A stretch of 47,153 nucleotides of DNA from Acidimicrobiales bacterium (GTDB lineage: Bacteria > Actinomycetota > Acidimicrobiia > Acidimicrobiales > SZUA-35): positions 14,271-61,423 of the forward strand of contig JAHDCV010000012.1 in assembly GCA_020629695.1 (NCBI GenBank), given 5' to 3'. The notes beneath the pieces were generated by a model. That model worked only from the letters and a program-made list of their open reading frames with translations. It had not been told where the DNA came from and did not search any database. The translations under genes were made by a program, and so were the position numbers. Of this stretch, positions 4,992-47,153 are shown piece after piece. Each line of letters begins with the position of its first letter. Within the stretch, counting starts at the first letter, position 1.

Positions 4992-6145
4992 GACGTCGTT
5001 TCGCGATCGGACAGGCCGAGCTCGCCCGTCGGCGCGTCGTCGACTCGGCCATCGATCGTCGCCGGCGCCAACGCCACGGTGCCGTCCCGCTCGACCCGTA
5101 CCACCGCATCGGGTCGAGTCGGCTCGGGAAGACCCGAGGCCGACGTGATCACGCTCTGCCCGGGTGGAAGATGGGCGAGGAGGGCCGCGGCACGATCGGG
5201 ATCGAGCTCGGACAACACATCGTCGAGCAGGAGCAGCGGGGCCTCACCGAGTCGGTCGGTGGCGAGCTGATGCGCGGCCAGCCGCATCGCCAGCGCGAGC
5301 GTGCGTTGTTCGCCCTGTGACGCCTCGGTCCGCGAGGCGAGACCGTCCAACCGGAGATCGAGTTCATCCCGATGAGGACCGATGAGGCTGACCCCCCGAC
5401 GAACGTCGTCGTCGCGGCCATCGACCAGCGCCTCGCCCAGGCTCCGAGCCGACCAGGAACGTTCGTAGCGAGCCTCGAGCGGCACGACCTCGCCGGCGAG
5501 AACGGCGTAACTCTGCTGCAGTCGTGGTCCGAGAATCGCGACGAGGCGTTCGCGCTCCTCCGTCAACTCACTCGCCAGCCCGGCGAGCTTGTCGTCCCAG
5601 ACGTCGAGCGTGATCGCCGCCGCTTCGTCGAGGCGCCCCTTGCATTGCTTGAGCAGTGCGTTGCGCTGCTTCAGGACGCGGTCCAGATCCGACTGCAGCG
5701 AGGCCGACCGGGGGTCCAACACCACCATCAGTTCGTCGAGGTAGCGGCGTCGTTCGGCCGGTCCGTCCTTGACCATCGCGAGGTCGTCCGGCGCGAAGAC
5801 CATGACCCGGAGTGCACCGAGCAGATCCTGCGTGCGTTGCACTCGCTGTCGATTCACCTGCACCCGCGTCCGACCTTGACGCGACAGCGCCACCTCGATC
5901 AAGACATCGCGCTCGTCCCGCACACCCTCGGCTCGGATGATCGCCTCGGAGGCACCACGTCGGATCAAGCTCTCCGTCGGAGCTCCGCGAAAGGACCGCA
6001 ACGTGGACAGCAGCGCGATCGCCTCGAGCAGATTGGTCTTCCCGACGCCGTTGTCACCGAGGACAGCCGTCAAGCCGAGATCGAGCTCGATCTCGAGCGA
6101 TTCGTGACTGCGGAAGTCCTGCAGCCAGACCCGCCGGAGCTGCAC
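4988..6145 (-). CDS. recF: DNA replication/repair protein RecF
   Basis: SMC-like ABC ATPase of 385 residues that helps load RecA at single-strand gaps with RecO and RecR. The N-terminus shows LRRVWLQDFRSHESLEIELD and the Walker A motif GDNGVGKTNLL (about 31-41). A helical coiled-coil arm lies in the middle. Signature and Walker B motifs are at the C-terminal end (SQGEQRTLALAM, then LLLLDDVLSELD). It starts with GTG, 13 bases after the dnaN stop, and its stop overlaps the dciA start, so dnaN-recF-dciA-gyrB-gyrA probably form one operon. Confidence 0.97.
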
Positions 6146-37492: not shown

Positions 37493-37496
<4 letters not shown>

Positions 37497-39145
37497 GACG
37501 GCACCACCACCGGTGTGCCCGGCTCGATGCCGGTGACCTCGACGTCGCCGTCGGCGAACATGCCCGGCTCGACCGGCACGAACTGGGTCGTCCCGTCGGC
37601 GAAGGGGACCTCGACGACGTAGGTGCCGTCGCCGAGCGAGATGAGCGCCGAGGCGGGCACGATCGTCGCACCGGCCGCGAGGTCCTCGACGATCTGGATG
37701 TCGACGTCGAGCTCGTTGCTCGTGGCGTAGGCCTCGGGCAGCTCGCCGACGGTGATCTCGACCGCCAGGGTGGGCTCGGCGGTCGGATCCATCGGGTCGA
37801 CGCTCGACGACGTCGCGACGTCGGTGACCTCGCCGGGCACGGTCGACCCGTCGGGGAGCTCGACGTCGACGATCGTGCCGAGCGCCAGCTTGTCCTGTTC
37901 GGCGACGTCGATCTCGGTCGAGACGATCCGGCCGATCGCGCCGTCGGTCGTCGAGAAGAACTCGCTGCCGGAGGCCGTCATGTCGGCATCGTGGGTGGTG
38001 ATCGTCCCGACGGTGATCGGTCCGTCGGCGGCCACGATCCAGAGGTCGTCGAGGTCGATGCCACCGTCGGCGTCGAACTCGTCGTACCGATCGGCCAGGT
38101 CGTCCTCCCAGTCCTCGATCGCCTCGGCGGTGGCGGCTTCGAACTCGTCATCGACCTCGAGATCGCCACCGGCGTCGTAGCCGAGGTCGCTGAGCATCTG
38201 CTCGACCACGGCGATGTCGTCGCCGTCTGCGATGCCGTCGACCAGGTCCCGGTCGAACTCGGCCGGGTCCTCGACGAGGAGTGCGATCACCGGCTGCTCG
38301 TCGACCGTGTAGACGACGTCACCCGATCGGATCTCGCTGCCGGCGGTGACGACGACGTCGATCTCACCGTCATGGGCCGTGTGTCCCGTAGCGACGCTCG
38401 AGCCGAGGGTCAGGGTGACGAGCGGGGCACCGGTGGCGACCCGGTCGCCGCGCTCGACCGACGCGTCCGTCACGAGGCTCGGGCCCGGCACGACGACGAC
38501 ATCGGTGGGCTGCACCACGCCGGTCTCGGCGACGCCGAGCTCGGCCTGCCAGGCCTCGACCGCCTCGGCCGTGGCCGAGTCGAACACGCCGTCGACGACG
38601 AAGCCCGTGTCGATCTCGTTGCCGTCGTCGTCGAGCGACGTGTGATGACCGAGTGCGGCGAGGTTCGCCTCGAGGATGGCGACGTCGTCGCCGGTGTCTC
38701 CTTCAGCGAGCGGTCGATACAGCCCGAGGTCGCCGTAGAAGACGGTGGTCGGTACGGCGTCGAGCTCGTAGGCGACGTCTCCGCGGGTGACCGTGCTGCC
38801 GGTCGGCACGATCTCCGTCACGAGGCCGGCGTTCGCCGCAGTCAGCGTCTGCTGGTCGGCCCAGGTGAGCGTGCCGTCGAGCTCGGAGAACTCGACGAGG
38901 TCCGAAACCGTGGCCTCGACGGCCCGGAGGGTGACGGGTTCGGCGGTGGCGTCGTCGCCGTCGCCGCTGGTGGTCACGAGGACGCCGGCGGCGGCGCCGA
39001 CGGCGAGGAGGACGGCGCCGGCGATCAGCCAGGGGCGACGGTTGCGGCCGTTGGTGCCGGTCGTGTCGGCGGGCGGGGTGGTCGGCACCGGAGCGGACGT
39101 GTCCGGTGCGGCATCGGGGGTGGTGTCGTTGGTGAGCACGGGCAT
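37493..39145 (-). CDS. HlyD/MacA-like adaptor with two peptidoglycan-binding-like segments
   Basis: Membrane-anchored protein of 550 residues starting MPVLTNDTTPD. A Thr/Pro-rich N-terminus precedes one membrane segment (about 39-58). The first lipoyl/barrel half follows (GTLTWADQQTLTAANAGLVT, 91-110). A PG_binding_1-like unit lies at about 147-210 (GDTGDDVAILEANLAALGHH, FDSATAEAVEAWQAELG), and a second, very acidic one at about 302-372 (GDDIAVVEQMLSDLGYD, FEAATAEAIEDWEDDL). The C-terminal half carries the beta-barrel and membrane-proximal strands (VVVPSxx-type end GTPVVVPS). It probably couples the ABC transporter to the cell wall. It begins one base after the lipoprotein stop. Confidence 0.86.
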
Positions 39146-39146
39146 G

Positions 39147-39803
39147 TCAGTTGCCACCTCCGATGCCGCCGGTGAAGGCGGCCTGGCAGGTGGCGACGAC
39201 GGCGGCGTTCTCGGGTGCCTGCGGGTCGAAGTCGCCGAACATCTCCTGGATGGCGGCGGGGTTGAGGCCACCGGAGAGGTTGGGGTCACTCACGTCGATG
39301 CCCTGGTCGCGCAGGCAGTCGGCGAACTGGAGGAGCTGATCCTCGATCTCGGCGGTCTCGTCGTCGCTGGGGAGGAAGCTCGCACCTTCGATGAGGTCGC
39401 TGCACACCTCGAGGGCGGCCTCGGTCTCGGGGTCGTCGGCGTCGATGTCCGGCGGGTTGTTCGGGTCGATGAGCTGGACCGAGCCGTCGGCGGCGACGGT
39501 CGGATCGGGGAACGGCAGGCCTTCGTCGCGCATGCACTCGGCGAAGGCGAGGGCCTGGGCTTCCTCGTCGGCGATGGCGTCGTCGCCGGCCTCGGTCATG
39601 TCGTCGGCCGAGGAGCTCTCGCTCGCCTCGTCGGTCGTGGCCGCGGCGCTCTCGTCGCCGCCCGCGGCCGTGTCGCCATCAGCGACGGGTGCCACGCTGG
39701 CTCCTTCGATGATGATGGCGGGTGCCGCGTCGTCGGTGTCGCCGGAGCCGCAGGCCGCGCCGAGGACGGCCAGGGTGACGACGAGGGGGATCAGTCGTTG
39801 CAT
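39147..39803 (-). CDS. Lipoprotein with duplicated Cys-pair unit
   Basis: Exported protein of 218 residues, ATG at 39803 with GGAG ten bases before it. The signal peptide MQRLIPLVVTLAVLGAAC gives a lipid-attached Cys18. An acidic Ser/Ala-rich linker runs to about 80. Two copies of one unit follow: FAECMRDEGLPFPDP (87-101) with Cys90 and Cys134, and FADCLRDQGIDVSDP (160-174) with Cys163 and Cys206. Cys spacing is 44 and 43 residues, so each unit probably has its own disulfide. Similar FA-C-MR-G-DP proteins occur beside HlyD-ABC operons in actinobacteria. It may be the sensor or substrate-binding part. Confidence 0.85.
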   Translation of the reverse strand: MQRLIPLVVTLAVLGAACGSGDTDDAAPAIIIEGASVAPVADGDTAAGGDESAAATTDEASESSSADDMTEAGDDAIADEEAQALAFAECMRDEGLPFPDPTVAADGSVQLIDPNNPPDIDADDPETEAALEVCSDLIEGASFLPSDDETAEIEDQLLQFADCLRDQGIDVSDPNLSGGLNPAAIQEMFGDFDPQAPENAAVVATCQAAFTGGIGGGN

Positions 39804-39872
39804 GGGAAGCATCTCCAAGTGGTCGGGGGTCATCGCCGGGAGGTGGCGATGAAGGAGATGCTCGTGAACCGA

Positions 39873-39911
39873 TCTGAGCCGCCTCTGAGCCCGATCTGAG
39901 GGCTCGCTGAG
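39873..39911 (-). promoter_or_regulatory. Four 11-bp-spaced CTCAG repeats (candidate OmpR-family operator)
   Basis: On the minus strand CTCAG recurs at exactly 11-base steps: complements of 39907-39911, 39896-39900, 39885-39889 and 39874-39878. This is the direct-repeat geometry bound by head-to-tail OmpR/PhoB-type dimers. The array ends 70 bases before the lipoprotein start. The same spacing and core occur before the response-regulator gene at 42102-42128. Confidence 0.72.
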
Positions 39912-39959
39912 GCCTCGGTCACTCGCTGAGGTCTCAGTCACTCGCTGAGATCTCAGACC
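39903..39959. repeat. Three tandem 19-bp repeats
   Basis: Unit CTCGCTGAGGYCTCRGTCA is repeated three times head to tail (39903-39921, 39922-39940, 39941-39959). Each copy has an inner near-palindrome; the third has the perfect CTGAGATCTCAG. The third copy contains the histidine-kinase stop codon, and the first shares its CTGAG with the 11-bp-spaced array. Confidence 0.85.
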
Positions 39960-41335
39960 GCCACGGAGAACCCGACGACGGTGCCGGACCCCGGCTCGAC
40001 GTCGCCGACCCAGGTGGTGCCGTCGTGCGCGTGGGCGACCTGCTGCACGATCGCGAGTCCGATCCCGTTGCCGGGACGGCTGCGGGCCTTCGGTGAGCGG
40101 AAGAAGCGGTCGAACACATGCGCCCGGTCCTCGGCTGCGATGCCGGACCCGTGGTCGAGCACCTCGATCCGGCCGCCGTGCGACCGGATCACGATCGGGC
40201 CGTCGTCGCTGTACTTCACGGCGTTGTCGACGAGGTTCTGGATGGCCCGCCGCACCATCGCCACGGCCACGACCGCCACGGCGTCGTCGGTGTCGGTCTC
40301 GATCCGACGCCCGCTCGCGAGCGCACTCCGCTCGGCGACGGTGTCGACGATGTCGGCGAGGCGCACCGGCTCCGGGGGCTCATGATCGGAGTGCGGGTCG
40401 GTGGCGAGGTCGATCAGGTCGGACACCAGCGCGGTGAGCTGATGCACGTCGGCCCCGGCCGACTCGATCAGGCCGTGGCGTTGCGCGTCGTCGAGATCGG
40501 GCCGGGACGCGAGGAACTCCGTCCGCATCCGGAGCGACGTGAGGGGGGTGCGCAGTTCGTGGCTGGCGTCCGCGACGAGCCGACGTTGCTGCTCCCGACT
40601 CACCTCGATCGCCGACGACATCCGGTTGAAGCTGTCGGCGAGTCTCCCCAGCTCGTCACGCCGGTTGATCTCGATCCGGCCGGGCACGTCGTCGAGCTCG
40701 GCGAGCTGCTCGGCAGCACCGATGAGGGCATTCACGGGTCGCGCCAAGCGTCGTCCCAACCACCAGCTCCCGAACGACACGAGGGCGACGGCGAGCAGCG
40801 CGACCAGCCCGAGCCGCCAGGCCAGGCGGACGAGTGCCTGCTCCTCCGCCGTGGTGTCGTTGTAGAGCTGGATCGCTGCGAGGTCGATCCCGCCCAGGCC
40901 GATGAGGCCGGCGTCGTCGACGGGAAAGATCGAGACAGTCGCGAGGCGATAGGTCCGCCCGTCGACGACGCGGTCGGTGAGCACGATCTCTTCGCCGTCC
41001 GCGAGGCCCTCGAGGATCTCGCCCGACCAGAGGTTCTGGTCGGAGCCGAGCGGCGTGCCGTCGGAGCGGTAGAGGATGATCCCAGCCTCCTCGTCGCCCA
41101 CCCGATCGAGCCGGGCGAGCGGTGGCGGCGAACCGGTGGACCCCGCCGAGGCGATGGCCTGCGTGATTTCCCGACTCGAGATCGCCTGGACGCGCTCGGC
41201 CTGTTGTTGCAGCTGCCGGTCGACCGAGCTGCGGACCTCGTCGACGGCGAAGAGCCAGGCGACCAGTGCGACTGCGGGGATCACGACCAGCCCGAGCGCC
41301 GTGAGTCCGAGTGAGACCCGGGCCGACAGCCTCAT
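39953..41335 (-). CDS. Sensor histidine kinase (OmpR-partner type)
   Basis: Two-pass membrane kinase of 460 residues, start ATG MRLSARVSLG. Membrane segments lie at about 9-30 and 165-188, enclosing an outer sensor domain of about 130 residues. HAMP follows, then the H box VADASHELRTPLTSLRMR, N box NLVDNAVKYS and G boxes DHGSGIAAEDR and GNGIGLAIVQQVAH. The ATG overlaps the regulator stop (ATGA). It probably phosphorylates the regulator encoded before it. Confidence 0.95.
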   Translation of the reverse strand: MRLSARVSLGLTALGLVVIPAVALVAWLFAVDEVRSSVDRQLQQQAERVQAISSREITQAIASAGSTGSPPPLARLDRVGDEEAGIILYRSDGTPLGSDQNLWSGEILEGLADGEEIVLTDRVVDGRTYRLATVSIFPVDDAGLIGLGGIDLAAIQLYNDTTAEEQALVRLAWRLGLVALLAVALVSFGSWWLGRRLARPVNALIGAAEQLAELDDVPGRIEINRRDELGRLADSFNRMSSAIEVSREQQRRLVADASHELRTPLTSLRMRTEFLASRPDLDDAQRHGLIESAGADVHQLTALVSDLIDLATDPHSDHEPPEPVRLADIVDTVAERSALASGRRIETDTDDAVAVVAVAMVRRAIQNLVDNAVKYSDDGPIVIRSHGGRIEVLDHGSGIAAEDRAHVFDRFFRSPKARSRPGNGIGLAIVQQVAHAHDGTTWVGDVEPGSGTVVGFSVAV

Positions 41336-42060
41336 GAGTCGACTCGTGCCGCGTAGCCGATCCCTCGCACGGTCTGCACGACGCGGTCGGCGCCGCCCTG
41401 TTCGAGCTTGCGGCGGAGCTGTGAGACGCACACCTCGAGCGAGTTCGACATGTGTTCGCCGTCGTAGCCCCAGACGTGTTCGTGCAGCTGCGTTCGCGTC
41501 AACACGTTGGGGCTGTGATCCATCAGGAGCGCGAGCAGGTCGAACTCCAGCCTCGTGAGGTCGGCGGCGTCGCCGTCGACGTGCACGGTCCGTGCACTCG
41601 GGTCGAGCACGACGCGACCGACGGCGAGTGTCTCGGGCCCGGACGCGCTCGGCAGGACCCCGGGGCGCCGGAGCAGTGCCCGGACCCGGGCGAGCAGCTC
41701 GTCCAGGGCGAACGGTTTGACGAGGTAGTCGTCGGCGCCGGCGTCGAGCCCCCGCACCCGCTCGGCGGTCTCGTGCCGCGCGGTGAGCATCAGGATCGAT
41801 CCGGTGAACCCCTCTTGGCGGAGACGCTTGCAGACGGCGACCCCGTCGAGGTCGGGCAGGCCGATGTCGAGGAGCACGAGGTCGGGTTGCATCGCCCCGA
41901 CCGCAGCCAGGCACGAGCGGCCGTCGGGGAAGGTCTGCGCGTCGTGGCCCTCGTGTGTCAGGACGGCTTCGAGCATGTCGCGCACCGAGCGATCGTCCTC
42001 GACGATCGCGAGGCGCCCGCCGTGGGCGGTGTCGGTGATGGTGACGGAGGGATCTGACAT
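41332..42060 (-). CDS. OmpR/PhoB-family response regulator
   Basis: DNA-binding regulator of 242 residues. The receiver domain has acidic EDD near the N-terminus (LAIVEDDRSVRDML), the phosphate-accepting Asp in LVLLDIGLPDLDG and Lys in DDYLVKPFALDE. The winged-helix effector domain ends with VCVSQLRRKLEQGGADRVVQ and TVRGIGYAARV. ATG at 42060 or two codons earlier at 42066. The 11-bp-spaced repeats at 42102-42128 lie just upstream, which suggests it binds its own promoter. Confidence 0.95.
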   Translation of the reverse strand: MSDPSVTITDTAHGGRLAIVEDDRSVRDMLEAVLTHEGHDAQTFPDGRSCLAAVGAMQPDLVLLDIGLPDLDGVAVCKRLRQEGFTGSILMLTARHETAERVRGLDAGADDYLVKPFALDELLARVRALLRRPGVLPSASGPETLAVGRVVLDPSARTVHVDGDAADLTRLEFDLLALLMDHSPNVLTRTQLHEHVWGYDGEHMSNSLEVCVSQLRRKLEQGGADRVVQTVRGIGYAARVDS

Positions 42061-42101
42061 GAGCATCTCGGGGGTCCTGACGACGATCGAAGCGGCCGAT
42101 C

Positions 42102-42128
42102 CTGAGCGGTTCCTGAGGTCCGGATGAG
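42102..42128 (-). promoter_or_regulatory. Three 11-bp-spaced repeats upstream of the response regulator
   Basis: On the minus strand CTCAT, CTCAG and CTCAG (complements of 42124-42128, 42113-42117 and 42102-42106) recur at 11-base steps, 42-68 bases before the regulator start. Core and spacing match the array before the lipoprotein operon. Candidate autoregulatory operator. Confidence 0.68.
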
Positions 42129-42191
42129 GACGTCGTGAACTCGACTCGGGATCGACCGCTGGCTGGTGGGGGTGGGGGAGGGCGATCGGCG

Positions 42192-44804
42192 TCAGCTCAT
42201 GGCCTCGAGCGGCGGGAGGCGGGAGGCCTTCCACGCCGGCCAGGCAGCGGCGAGCACACCGGAGACGGCACCGGCGAGGGCGATCCAGGCCATCGTGACG
42301 ACCGGGACCGAGATGATGATCCCCTCGTCGCCGCCGAGGGCGGAGAAGGCGACGTAGGCGGCGGCGATGCCGAAGGCGAGGCCGACCAGCGAACCCTGGA
42401 CCGAGAGCATGGCGGCCTCGTTGCGGATCATGGAGCGGATCTGCGCAGAGGTCATGCCGACCGCCCGCAGCATGCCGATCTCCCTCACCCGCTCGTTCAC
42501 CGCCATCACGGTGGTGTTGGCGATGCCGACCACGGCGATCACGACCGCCACGGCGAGCATGGCGTAGACGAAGTTGGTGAAGGTGTCGATGAAGCTCCCG
42601 AGGGAGTCGGCGTAGGCCTCGGCGGTGAAGAGTGTTGCCCCACCAGCCGCGCTGACGGCGTCCTCGATGGCGGCGAAGGTGGCCTCGCTGCCGTTGGTCG
42701 TCACGTAGATCGTGTCGTCGAGGCCCGGGCCGACGATGCCGTCGAGGGTGGTGGTGTCGAAGATGAAGCTCGGCGCCAGGCCTGGGAGGTCGTTGGCGAC
42801 GATCGCACCGATCTCGGCGTCGACGATCCCGGCGGTCGGGAAGGTCAGCTCGATCGTGTCGCCGACGGCGAGGGGTGTCTCGAGGGTGTCGAGGTACGTC
42901 TGACTCACGGCGATCTGCCCGTCCGCCAGGCCGGCCAGCGATCCGTCGGTGACCCCGAGGTCGTACGTCGTCGTGACGGCGTCGGTGTCGACCGAGCCGA
43001 CGACCAGGCCGGCACCGTCGGCGAGGGCGGTGGTGACCCGGAGCGACGAGATCGAGGTGACGCCGTCGATGCCGGCGATGGTCGTGTCGAGGTCGCCCGG
43101 GATCGTCGCCTCACCGATGGGGCCGGTGCTGAGCGACTCGACGACGAGATCGGACGCCAGGGCATCGCCGACGTCGGACGAGGTCGAGGCGCCCAGTGAT
43201 GCGGCCATCACCGTGAAGAACGAGATGAGGGCGACGCCGAGGGTGAGCGCGAAGGCCGTCGAGGCGCTGCGCTTCGGGTTGCGGCTGGCGTTCATCCGGG
43301 CGAGGCGTCCGACGATCGTCGAATCGGCGTCACGGAACCGACCGATCGCGCCGTCGACCGATCGGGAGAAGATCGACGTGACACCGGGGCCACCGACGAT
43401 GATGCCCACGAAGGCGGAGCCGATGCCGGCCGTGGCCGGGATCCAGCTCCCGGCGACGACTCCCCAGATGCCGAGCCCGATGCCGCAGAGCAGCAGGGCG
43501 ACGGCGATGCCGTTGCGCACGATGGAGGCGGCCGAGGCGTCGTTGACCGAGTCACGGAGGGCGGCGATCGGGGCGATCGAGGCCGCCTTGCGTGCCGGGG
43601 CATAGGCCGAGGCGAGGGTGGCCACGAGCCCAACGGCGAAGCCGGCGATGAGTGACGACGAGGTGATCACCGGCGAGCCCGCCAGGAACGACAAGCCGAT
43701 GGCTTCGAAGAGGGAGATGAGCCCGAACACCGTCACCACACCGAAGGCGGCGCCGACGGCCGAGGCGAGCACACCGATCACGGCGGCTTCGATCATCACC
43801 GAGCCGAGCACCTGGCGCTTGCTCGCACCGATGGTGCGGAGCAGGGCGAGCTCCCGGGTGCGCTGGGCGACGGCGATGACGAAGGTGTTGTAGATGATCG
43901 TCGTGCCGGCGACGAGGGCGACCCCAGCGAAGAACAGCAGGAACGTCGTCTGGAAGCTCGTCCGGGACTCGACGTCGTCGATGAGCCCCTGCGTGTAGTC
44001 GGCGCCGGTGGTGACCGTCAGCGGGTTGCCGAGCGGGTCGGTGCCGACGGCGGCGGCGACCGTGGCGGCGTCCGCCGTGCCGTCCACGACGATGCGCTCG
44101 AGGCCGGTGGCGGCGAGCACGTCGGCTGCCACGGCGTCGTCGAAGAACACGATCGCGGCGTCCGGGTCGCTGCCACTGCTGGCGTAGTCGGCGATGCCGG
44201 TCACCTCGACGTCGAGCGTGCCGGTCGAGGTGAGGATCTCGACCGGGTCGCCGACGGCGAGATCGAGTTCGTCCGCGGTGCGGGCCTCGAGCACGACCTG
44301 GTCGGCGCCCGTCGGGGCGGTGCCGTCGACGAGGGTGTGGGTGCCGAGTTCGCCGTCGACCCAGTTCTGGCCCGTGTAGGTGATGACGCCGGTGTCGACG
44401 GGGATGCCGTCGGTGTCGAGCGCCCGGGCGTAGCCGGTGACGATGCCGACGGCGTCGTCGACACCGTCCACGGCGGTGAGGCTCGCCTCCGTGCCGAGCG
44501 GCACGACCGAGCTCAGGATGTCGGCCCCGCGGGGGCCGCCCGAGTCGGCCGACTCGCCGAGCTCGGCGCCGGTCACGACGAGGTCGATGCCGGCGTTCGC
44601 CTCGCGGATGTCGTCGCTGGCGGTGCCGGAGATGGTGGTGGTCAGGATCAGCATCGCCGTGAGGAAGGCGACGGAGAGGAGCACGGCCAGACCGGTGAGG
44701 GTGAAGCGGCTGCGGTTGGCCCAGAGGCCAGCGGTGGTGACCCGGGTCATGCCCGAGGTCCGGGGAGCGGTGGCGCTCGCGGTCGATGTGGTCGCAGTGG
44801 TCAT
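42192..44804 (-). CDS. Large FtsX-family ABC transporter permease
   Basis: Permease of 870 residues with two FtsX domains, as in BceB/SalY- and YknZ-related exporters. The first membrane segment lies at about 36-56 (LTGLAVLLSVAFLTAMLIL), followed by an outer domain, three segments between about 270 and 410, a central pair including IAVALLLCGIGLGIWGVVAG, another segment AFALTLGVALISFFTVMAAS, a second outer domain, and three final segments near 755-865. Conserved cytoplasmic turns are AQRTRELALLRTIGASKRQV and NERVREIGMLRAVGMTSAQI. It overlaps the ATPase stop by four bases. Confidence 0.94.
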   Translation of the reverse strand: MTTATTSTASATAPRTSGMTRVTTAGLWANRSRFTLTGLAVLLSVAFLTAMLILTTTISGTASDDIREANAGIDLVVTGAELGESADSGGPRGADILSSVVPLGTEASLTAVDGVDDAVGIVTGYARALDTDGIPVDTGVITYTGQNWVDGELGTHTLVDGTAPTGADQVVLEARTADELDLAVGDPVEILTSTGTLDVEVTGIADYASSGSDPDAAIVFFDDAVAADVLAATGLERIVVDGTADAATVAAAVGTDPLGNPLTVTTGADYTQGLIDDVESRTSFQTTFLLFFAGVALVAGTTIIYNTFVIAVAQRTRELALLRTIGASKRQVLGSVMIEAAVIGVLASAVGAAFGVVTVFGLISLFEAIGLSFLAGSPVITSSSLIAGFAVGLVATLASAYAPARKAASIAPIAALRDSVNDASAASIVRNGIAVALLLCGIGLGIWGVVAGSWIPATAGIGSAFVGIIVGGPGVTSIFSRSVDGAIGRFRDADSTIVGRLARMNASRNPKRSASTAFALTLGVALISFFTVMAASLGASTSSDVGDALASDLVVESLSTGPIGEATIPGDLDTTIAGIDGVTSISSLRVTTALADGAGLVVGSVDTDAVTTTYDLGVTDGSLAGLADGQIAVSQTYLDTLETPLAVGDTIELTFPTAGIVDAEIGAIVANDLPGLAPSFIFDTTTLDGIVGPGLDDTIYVTTNGSEATFAAIEDAVSAAGGATLFTAEAYADSLGSFIDTFTNFVYAMLAVAVVIAVVGIANTTVMAVNERVREIGMLRAVGMTSAQIRSMIRNEAAMLSVQGSLVGLAFGIAAAYVAFSALGGDEGIIISVPVVTMAWIALAGAVSGVLAAAWPAWKASRLPPLEAMS

Positions 44805-45583
44805 CGTCCGAAGGCCTTCATCCGGTCGAACACCCGGTCGCGGGTGGGTTCGAGCATCTCGTCGACGATCTGGCCGTCGTTCACGAAGACGACCCGGTCG
44901 GCGTAGGCGGCCGCACCGGGGTCGTGGGTGACCATCACGATGGTCTGGCCGATCTCCTGAACCGCCCGCTGCATGAACTCGAGGATCTCGGCCCCGGTGC
45001 GGGAGTCGAGATTGCCGGTCGGCTCGTCACCGAAGACGATCGACGGCTCGGCGACCAGCGCACGGGCCACGGCCACTCGCTGCTGCTGGCCGCCGGAGAG
45101 TTCGTTCGGGCGGTGGTCGAGGCGCTCGCGGATGCCGAGCACGTCGATCACCCGGTCGAAGGTCTCGGGATTCGGGCGGCGCTTGTCGAGCGCGAGCGGG
45201 AGCGTGATGTTCTCCTCGGCGCTGAGCGTCGGGATCAGGTTGAACGACTGGAAGATGAAGCCGATGTGGGCTCGCCGCATGAGGGTGAGGTCCCGGTCGG
45301 ACAGGGTCGAGAGGTCGGTGTCGCCGATGTAGGCGGAGCCGCTCGTGAGTTGGTCGAGGCCGGCGGCGTTCTGCATCAGCGTCGATTTGCCCGAGCCCGA
45401 GGGGCCCATGATGGCGGTGAACTGACCGCTGCGGAAGCCGACGGTGACGTCGTCGAGTGCCCGGACCTCGCTGTCACCCGATCCGTAGATCTTGGAGGCG
45501 TTCACGAGGCGGGCGGCGAGGTCGGCGTTGGCCGGCTGCCGCCCCCCGGGGGCGGTGATGGAGGTGGGGGCGATGGCTGTCAT
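44801..45583 (-). CDS. ABC transporter ATPase of the FtsX-permease exporter
   Basis: ATPase of 260 residues with Walker [14 protein letters not shown]-loop [16 protein letters not shown], signature [15 protein letters not shown], Walker [14 protein letters not shown] and the His switch in [16 protein letters not shown]. Paired with the permease gene that follows. The ATG at 45583 gives [16 protein letters not shown]. Confidence 0.95.
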
Positions 45584-45635
45584 GTGGCCATCGTCCGCCC
45601 GCCGGGCCGATCTGTCGTCGGGTGGTGGGAGGTTC

Positions 45636-45661
45636 CCGACTACTCCCGGGGGAGTAGTCGG
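45636..45661. promoter_or_regulatory. 26-bp palindrome before the second ABC operon
   Basis: Perfect 12-base arms CCGACTACTCCC (45636-45647) and GGGAGTAGTCGG (45650-45661) around two bases. It lies 53 bases upstream of the ABC ATPase start and 18 bases after the regulator stop. It is either the operator of the adjacent NarL-type regulator, which bind inverted repeats, or a terminator for the regulator gene. No U-tract follows on either strand, which favours the operator. Confidence 0.65.
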
Positions 45662-45679: not shown

Positions 45680-46360
45680 TCAGTCCACTCCCGGCACGAC
45701 GAGGCCGGCTTCGTAGGCCATCGTCACGAGCTGGGCCCGGTCACGTGCGCCGAGCTTGATCATCGCCCGGCTGACGTGGGTCTTCGCCGTCGCCGGTGAG
45801 ATGTAGAGCACCTCGGCGATCTCGGCGTTGTTGAGTCCCTTCGCCGCCTGGGCGACCACATCGGACTCACGTGCGGTCAGCTCGTCGAAGCGGGCGTCCC
45901 GCTCGAGCGTGCGGTCGGGCTCACCGGCGATCTTCTCGATGAGGCGCCGGGTCACCTTCGGGGCGAGCAGCGCCTCGCCGGAGGCGATCACCCGGATCGC
46001 GTCGAGCAGGTCGTCGGGGTCGGTGTCTTTGAGCAGGAAGCCACTCGCGCCCGAGCGGAGGGCCTCGTAGACGTACTCGTCGAGGTCGAAGGTCGTGAGC
46101 ACGAGGATGCGGACATCGGCGAGTCTCGGATCGGCGACGATCTCGCGGGTCGCGGCGAGGCCGTCCATCTCGGGCATGCGGATGTCCATGAGCACGACGT
46201 CCGGCCGGAGCAAACCGACCTGTCGGACCGCATCGACGCCGTCCTCGGCCTCACCGACGACCTCGAGACCGGGATCGGCGTCGATCATGAGCGTGAACCC
46301 GGCGCGCATCAATCGCTGGTCGTCGGCGATGAGCACCCGGATCGTCGTGGTGTCGCTCAC
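45680..46360 (-). CDS. NarL/LuxR-family response regulator
   Basis: Regulator of 226 residues, GTG start overlapping the kinase stop. The receiver domain has VLIADDQRLMRAGF, the phosphate-accepting Asp in DVVLMDIRMPEMDG and GFLLKDTDPDDLL. The LuxR-type helix-turn-helix is ELTARESDVVAQAAKGLNN, then AEIAEVLYISPATAKTHVSR. The adjacent kinase and ABC exporter genes form the typical export or self-protection arrangement of actinobacteria. Confidence 0.95.
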   Translation of the reverse strand: MSDTTTIRVLIADDQRLMRAGFTLMIDADPGLEVVGEAEDGVDAVRQVGLLRPDVVLMDIRMPEMDGLAATREIVADPRLADVRILVLTTFDLDEYVYEALRSGASGFLLKDTDPDDLLDAIRVIASGEALLAPKVTRRLIEKIAGEPDRTLERDARFDELTARESDVVAQAAKGLNNAEIAEVLYISPATAKTHVSRAMIKLGARDRAQLVTMAYEAGLVVPGVD

Positions 46361-47153
46361 GATGAACCCTCCGTCGGTGAGTGGGGGAGTGTGGCCTCGA
46401 CCGAGAACCCACCGTCGAGTCGCGGTCCCGACCGCAGCGACCCACCGACGGCTTCGGCGCGCTCGCGCAGGCCGATCAGACCGTGGCCCCCGCCCGGCGC
46501 CGCATCGGGGTCGGGCGCGCCGGTGTCGTCGTTCGTGACGGCGACCTCGAGGTGGTCGTCGTGATGGTCCAGGTGCACGTGGACCGCCGAACCTCGGGCG
46601 TGCTTGAGGGTGTTGGTGAGGGCTTCCTGCACGATCCGGTAGGCCGCGAGCTGCACCCCGGCGTCGAGGTCGTCGGGTGCGGTGCCGGTGATCGACAGCT
46701 CGGCGTCGGGATGCGCCTCGACCAGTGCGCTCACCTGTGCGAGACCGGGAGCGGGCGCGAGCTCGAGCTCGGTTCCGTCCGATCGGAGCACCCGGAGCGT
46801 CGCTCGGAGCTCGTCCATTGCGGACTTGCTCGCCTGGCGGATCTCGTCGAGTGCCTCCCGAGCGAGCGCCGGCTGCGCCTCGACGACGCGTGACGCCGCA
46901 CCGGCCTGCACGTTGATCGTGGCGATCGAGTGGGCGACCACGTCGTGCAGGTCGCGGGCGATGCGAAGGCGTTCGGCCTGCACGGCCTCGCGCGCCTCGG
47001 CATCTCGACTGGCCTCCATGGCAGCGAGCCGCGCTTCGATCGCCTCGCGTTCCGCCCGGCGGCTGCGAACCGAGTCGCCGATGATCACGGGCAGCAGTGT
47101 CACGATGAGGAAGAAGCCCCGTTCGAACGCGGTCGGCTCCTCGCCCTCGGGTG
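46357..47153 (-). CDS. NarL-type sensor histidine kinase (partial, cut by window end)
   Basis: C-terminal part of a HisKA_3-type kinase. The frame stays open to the window edge and reads hydrophobic there (RGFFLIVTLLPVIIG), so the membrane part starts outside. Visible are a coiled-coil segment (RAEREAIEARLAAMEASRDAE), the phosphate-accepting His in RLRIARDLHDVVAHSIATIN and an HATPase domain with YRIVQEALTNTLKHA and GHGLIGLRERAEAVGG. Its stop overlaps the regulator start by four bases. Confidence 0.93.
   Translation of the reverse strand, partial: PEGEEPTAFERGFFLIVTLLPVIIGDSVRSRRAEREAIEARLAAMEASRDAEAREAVQAERLRIARDLHDVVAHSIATINVQAGAASRVVEAQPALAREALDEIRQASKSAMDELRATLRVLRSDGTELELAPAPGLAQVSALVEAHPDAELSITGTAPDDLDAGVQLAAYRIVQEALTNTLKHARGSAVHVHLDHHDDHLEVAVTNDDTGAPDPDAAPGGGHGLIGLRERAEAVGGSLRSGPRLDGGFSVEATLPHSPTEGSS

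Follow-up and report, generated by a model that had tools for sequence, protein, structure and literature searches.

The window, by which we mean the whole 47,153-nt stretch of DNA that was analysed, carries near one end a two-component system and an ABC exporter, all encoded on the minus strand. These genes include: (i) a HisKA_3 sensor kinase (46357..47151, Pfam HisKA_3 and HATPase_c), the 5′ part of which is cut by the window end; (ii) a NarL-type response regulator (45680..46360, Pfam Response_reg and GerE), the proposed binder; (iii) an ABC transporter ATPase (44801..45583, Pfam ABC_tran), with which the proposed target operon begins; and (iv) an FtsX-type permease (42192..44804, Pfam FtsX in two stretches), which shares a 4-bp overlap with the ATPase gene. 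The kinase gene is interrupted by a scaffold gap of 100 N, and the window ends precisely where this gap begins (47100-47153 of the window; about 5380-5580 of locus L175). About 55 bp are repeated on either side of this gap, suggesting an overlap that was probably left unmerged in the assembly, and the kinase start (MDAPATSRSM...) is located past it. Directly downstream on the same strand, the region 37493-42234 encodes a second two-component system, composed of an OmpR-type regulator and a HAMP-containing HisKA kinase, along with a secretion-type protein that has a peptidoglycan-binding domain.

Between the regulator and exporter genes, where the original prediction had placed it, lies a 26-bp inverted repeat with 12-bp perfect arms and a GG centre (45636..45661, no strand assigned). 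The window letters at exactly these positions read CCGACTACTCCC-GG-GGGAGTAGTCGG, such that the arms are perfect and the middle pair is not self-complementary. The repeat is situated 18 nt past the regulator stop codon and 52 nt ahead of the ATPase ATG, the latter distance having earlier been given as 53 bases. It was the sole perfect inverted repeat with arms of ≥12 and a gap of ≤8 in the whole window, as compared with 0.2 such repeats expected per Markov-shuffled window (0.025 for a gap of exactly 2). The inner 20 bp, ACTACTCCC-N2-GGGAGTAGT, occurs as a single copy in the 4.17-Mb genome, with the next best match at 3 mismatches. The length of the palindrome is by itself only modestly unusual, and the weight of the case rests on its conservation and position.

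Recurrence of the core beside two-component genes

The conserved part of the palindrome is a core of two 7-bp inverted elements separated by a 2-bp gap, TACTCCC-N2-GGGAGTA (45641..45656, no strand assigned), which we propose as the operator based on its recurrence beside NarL-type kinase/regulator genes. The original prediction had called for a search for this sequence upstream of homologous exporter operons, and the outcome was strongly positive, far above the reversed controls. Among 99 relatives, 13 carried the core, at 14 sites in all, whereas the reversed control gave a single site; the core was further detected at 10 sites in 9 of 396 phylum genomes (2 for the control) and in 11 of 298 order genomes (2 for the control), with the genome samples overlapping. 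When 84,980 species were scanned, at least 116 loci were identified, and these were split by G+C content as a proxy for Actinomycetota. Among the matches listed, a homologue of the window kinase/regulator reading away from the site was present at 24 of the 26 high-GC loci that had ≥3 kb of sequence to either side, at 62 of 92 high-GC loci overall (many of the others being cut off), and at none of the 24 low-GC loci. Two Streptomyces-like genomes were found to encode 16-18 regulators of comparable closeness per 9-10 Mb; at this density, such a regulator would seldom be expected within 8 kb of a site by chance.

The kinase and regulator are the constant neighbours of the core, while the type of exporter changes between loci. 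An FtsX-type ABC exporter adjoins the core in the window and L023; a DrrA-type ATPase with an unnamed membrane partner in L018, L019, L022, L025, L027, L056, and L057; and an MMPL exporter in L044, L047, L050, L055, and L139. No exporter was apparent in the operon of L024, L051, or L097. At L053, the kinase-regulator genes and the ATPase-FtsX genes are divergently oriented, with the site in the interval separating them. When close homologues of the ATPase were examined by protein search, only 2 of 30 had the site, namely the window and its 76% relative. The site was therefore rejected as a mark of a transporter family, since 28 of the 30 homologues are without it and other exporters have it. 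The variation in exporter, together with the absence of the site from most ATPase homologues, indicates that the site belongs to the regulator and not to the transporter. Thus, the expectation that the site would recur upstream of homologous exporters is borne out as regards recurrence, but the site tracks a regulator clade instead of a transporter family.

Additional elements were observed at certain Streptomyces loci. The Streptomyces-type MMPL loci (L044, L047, L050, L060, and others) have an additional conserved copy ~30 bp downstream of the first, which is weaker (about CCCCCNGGCAGTA) and is followed by the further conserved blocks CTCGCCCT, CCCGACGAA, and GGGAGTCTGG; at these loci, no start codon, and hence no leaderless start, is present at the usual distance. 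A different short palindrome, GTGATCAC or near it, is located a few nucleotides downstream of the core in the Streptomyces loci L081, L086, L148, L152, and L174, where another regulator may bind it.

Regulator identity and recognition helix

The window regulator was assigned to the NarL/FixJ family by its Response_reg (5.9e-27) and GerE (4.9e-16) domains. It is neither NarL proper nor NarP proper, with scores of 147 and 139 bits against NCBIfam equivalog cut-offs of 250 and 343, respectively. Its recognition helix is TAKTHVSR, within a stretch that reads SPATAKTHVSRAM; the TAKTH codons (residues 191-195) are at 45776..45790 on the minus strand.

So that loci would not be selected by the site itself, the relationship between helix and site was analysed starting from the protein. 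In seven genomes, 54 regulators matched the window regulator at E < 1e-50; all were taken, and ~4.6 kb upstream of each was scored for the best match to the core. At least 12 of the 14 bases were matched for 10 of the 14 TAKTH regulators and for none of the 40 with other helices (Fisher p 4e-8). Because the site had already led to five of these seven genomes, the sample is not fully independent, but the contrast is one within genomes. Of the four exceptions, L287 and L288 (TAKTH) have 11 and 10 matches, respectively, at the kinase promoter position, while L310 (TAKTHINR) and L312 (TAKTHANR) differ in the residues after TAKTH. When 106 regulators were placed on a tree, presence of the site required 7 label changes compared with 26.8 for shuffled labels, and TAKTHVS was found in 64 of the 69 site-linked regulators. 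The window regulator itself is on a long branch of this tree and falls within none of the main site-linked clades.

The genome also contains a paralogous module in which kinase, regulator, ATPase, and FtsX permease follow one another as in the window (L236, contig C113, 1383-6790). Upstream of its kinase is TCCTCCC-N2-GGGAGGA, at the same spacing, and its regulator has the helix TVKTHVGR.

Several known systems resemble the one described here. Among regulators of solved structure, VraR is the closest; VraR/LiaR are NarL-type and linked to cell-envelope stress, though they are of a different phylum and the likeness is drawn from the regulator protein. ChrA was also among the solved-structure homologues of the window regulator. 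In Corynebacterium, the NarL-type two-component system ChrSA drives the neighbouring ABC ATPase and FtsX-type permease HrtBA, a gene arrangement like that of the window; however, this system is haem-specific, and the likeness stems from the genes alone, with no sign of a common signal or site. GarR/GarS of Streptomyces coelicolor was considered and set aside, as it has no such palindrome. The consensus of the NarL heptamer is TACYYMT, to which the TACTCCC of the core is near but not identical. The core (TACTCCC-GG-GGGAGTA), conserved as two inverted heptamers with a 2-bp gap, has the NarL-type 7-2-7 form, to which the cognate regulator is predicted to bind as a dimer; the Escherichia coli NarL operators of ogt and yeaR likewise have two 7-base inverted elements with a 2-bp gap and are bound by a NarL dimer (PMC7419079). 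The neighbours of the site described here are exporters and not nitrate genes.

Promoter geometry and competing explanations

The distance from the core to the next gene was found to be nearly fixed. The start codon is positioned 57-61 nt past the core end at 35 of 41 kinase-first loci and 58-60 nt past it at 10 of 11 ABC-first loci, the window having 58 nt. A TANNNT hexamer starts at +47 or +48 after the core at 30 of the 41 kinase-first loci, and the window sequence GACGAT (45590..45595, minus strand), a -10 candidate 6 nt before the ATG, aligns with the hexamer that relatives have at +47/+48 (TANNNT or CACGAT). A weak -35 candidate, ACGACA (45613..45618, minus strand), was read by eye 17 bp ahead of this hexamer. 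No sigma-70-like site was found at the window promoter region, and the candidate promoter elements are weak matches. Just past the core, GAACCTCCC (45627..45635, minus strand) resembles the GAAGCCTCCC found at this position in the ABC-first loci of relatives and may serve as an accessory half-site.

Leaderless transcripts are common in actinobacteria (PMC3898074, PMC3160421) and typically have their -10 hexamer 6-7 nt ahead of the start codon; hence, a leaderless start would be expected at the ATPase ATG (45583). If the start codon is taken as +1, the operator is centred at -65.5 in the window and at -64.5 to -68.5 in relatives, a position compatible with activation if the presumed transcript start is correct. 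The distance is workable for the family, since one 7-2-7 site centred at -67.5 suffices for activation by E. coli NarL (PMC7419079). The original prediction of activation from just upstream of a promoter is retained as to an upstream activator; however, the position fits an activator located ~65-68 bp before the expected transcript start rather than one abutting the -35 element. The alternative that the same regulator uses this site to repress the exporter operon appears improbable: the sign of regulation is unreadable from sequence and NarL-type regulators can repress (PMC4549865), yet the site is clear of the core promoter, centred at a distance proven for NarL activation.

The palindrome could instead encode a terminator without a tail, in which an RNA hairpin 18 nt past the regulator stop codon would end transcription of the kinase-regulator operon. 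Its position just past the stop codon and the good hairpin predicted by minus-strand folding (11 pairs, 4-nt loop) are in keeping with this, but we judge it very unlikely. The stem lacks the U-tract of an intrinsic terminator on either strand, an absence already noted in the original prediction, and the folding of the region was not better than that of shuffled sequences (z -1.15). Furthermore, the arms past 7 bp are mostly non-complementary in relatives (66 of 115 sites are without extension), the site variants in the protein-first set are one-sided, and the distance to the next start codon is fixed. No Rfam match was detected in the window at the gathering threshold, and a known structured RNA is thus not indicated. 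That another conserved factor binds the site and merely co-occurs with these operons is extremely unlikely; in one of the Streptomyces loci examined (L097), the site is preceded by a TetR-family gene, but no neighbour other than the kinase and regulator is constant, and presence of the site follows the recognition helix of the regulator.

Overall, and in essence as originally predicted, the palindrome is very probably an operator through which the adjacent NarL-type regulator activates a leaderless promoter of the exporter operon. Conservation of the site, its linkage to one clade of regulators, its constant distance from the start codon, and its match to one type of recognition helix were all computed from the genomes and support the regulator-operator interpretation, with the binding itself a prediction. 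According to the mechanism proposed, stimulation of the kinase would lead to phosphorylation of the regulator, which would then bind TACTCCC-N2-GGGAGTA as a dimer and, from ~65 bp upstream, activate the leaderless promoter of the ATPase-FtsX operon; the exporter, we infer, would export an envelope-active compound. In many relatives the site additionally precedes the kinase-regulator genes, which implies autoregulation there. No site was found upstream of the kinase-regulator operon of the window; thus, feedback may be absent or indirect in this organism.

A possible wider operator class in Actinomycetota

The occurrence of the 16-letter site in distant Actinomycetota, with the same kind of regulator and different exporters, points to a newly recognised switch of a familiar type. 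A search of open-access literature did not reveal any earlier account of an operator with the sequence TACTCCC-N2-GGGAGTA, which is weak evidence of novelty. A broader but tentative reading, which we regard as possible and somewhat doubtful, is that the site represents a phylum-wide, undescribed operator class in which a few recognition-helix residues (T-A-K-T-H-V-S-R) specify TACTCCC near -65 to -68 before leaderless promoters, one regulator clade controls unrelated exporters, and sister regulators read altered heptamers. In that reading, the sister heptamers would be TCCTCCC (own-genome paralogue, TVKTHVGR) and, for helices ending in N-R, TACTGCG or TACCGCA. Neither of the sister operators scanned was enriched, with TACTGCG-N2-CGCAGTA detected in 3 genomes compared with 4 for its reversed control and TCCTCCC-N2-GGGAGGA in 3 compared with 3; of those six sister-motif loci, only the own-genome paralogue adjoins a kinase and regulator. 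A code extending past TACTCCC is therefore only hinted at, by single cases. If true, the altered heptamers of sister regulators would lead to a predictive protein-DNA code.

The site provides a candidate operator, and hence target operons, for widespread and apparently uncharacterised actinobacterial two-component systems beside exporters, and scanning any actinobacterial genome for the 16-mer would read off likely targets. With the tight match between helix and half-site, the avoidance of cross-talk among related NarL-type regulators becomes directly testable, and the operator would be useful both for annotation and for tests of recognition specificity.
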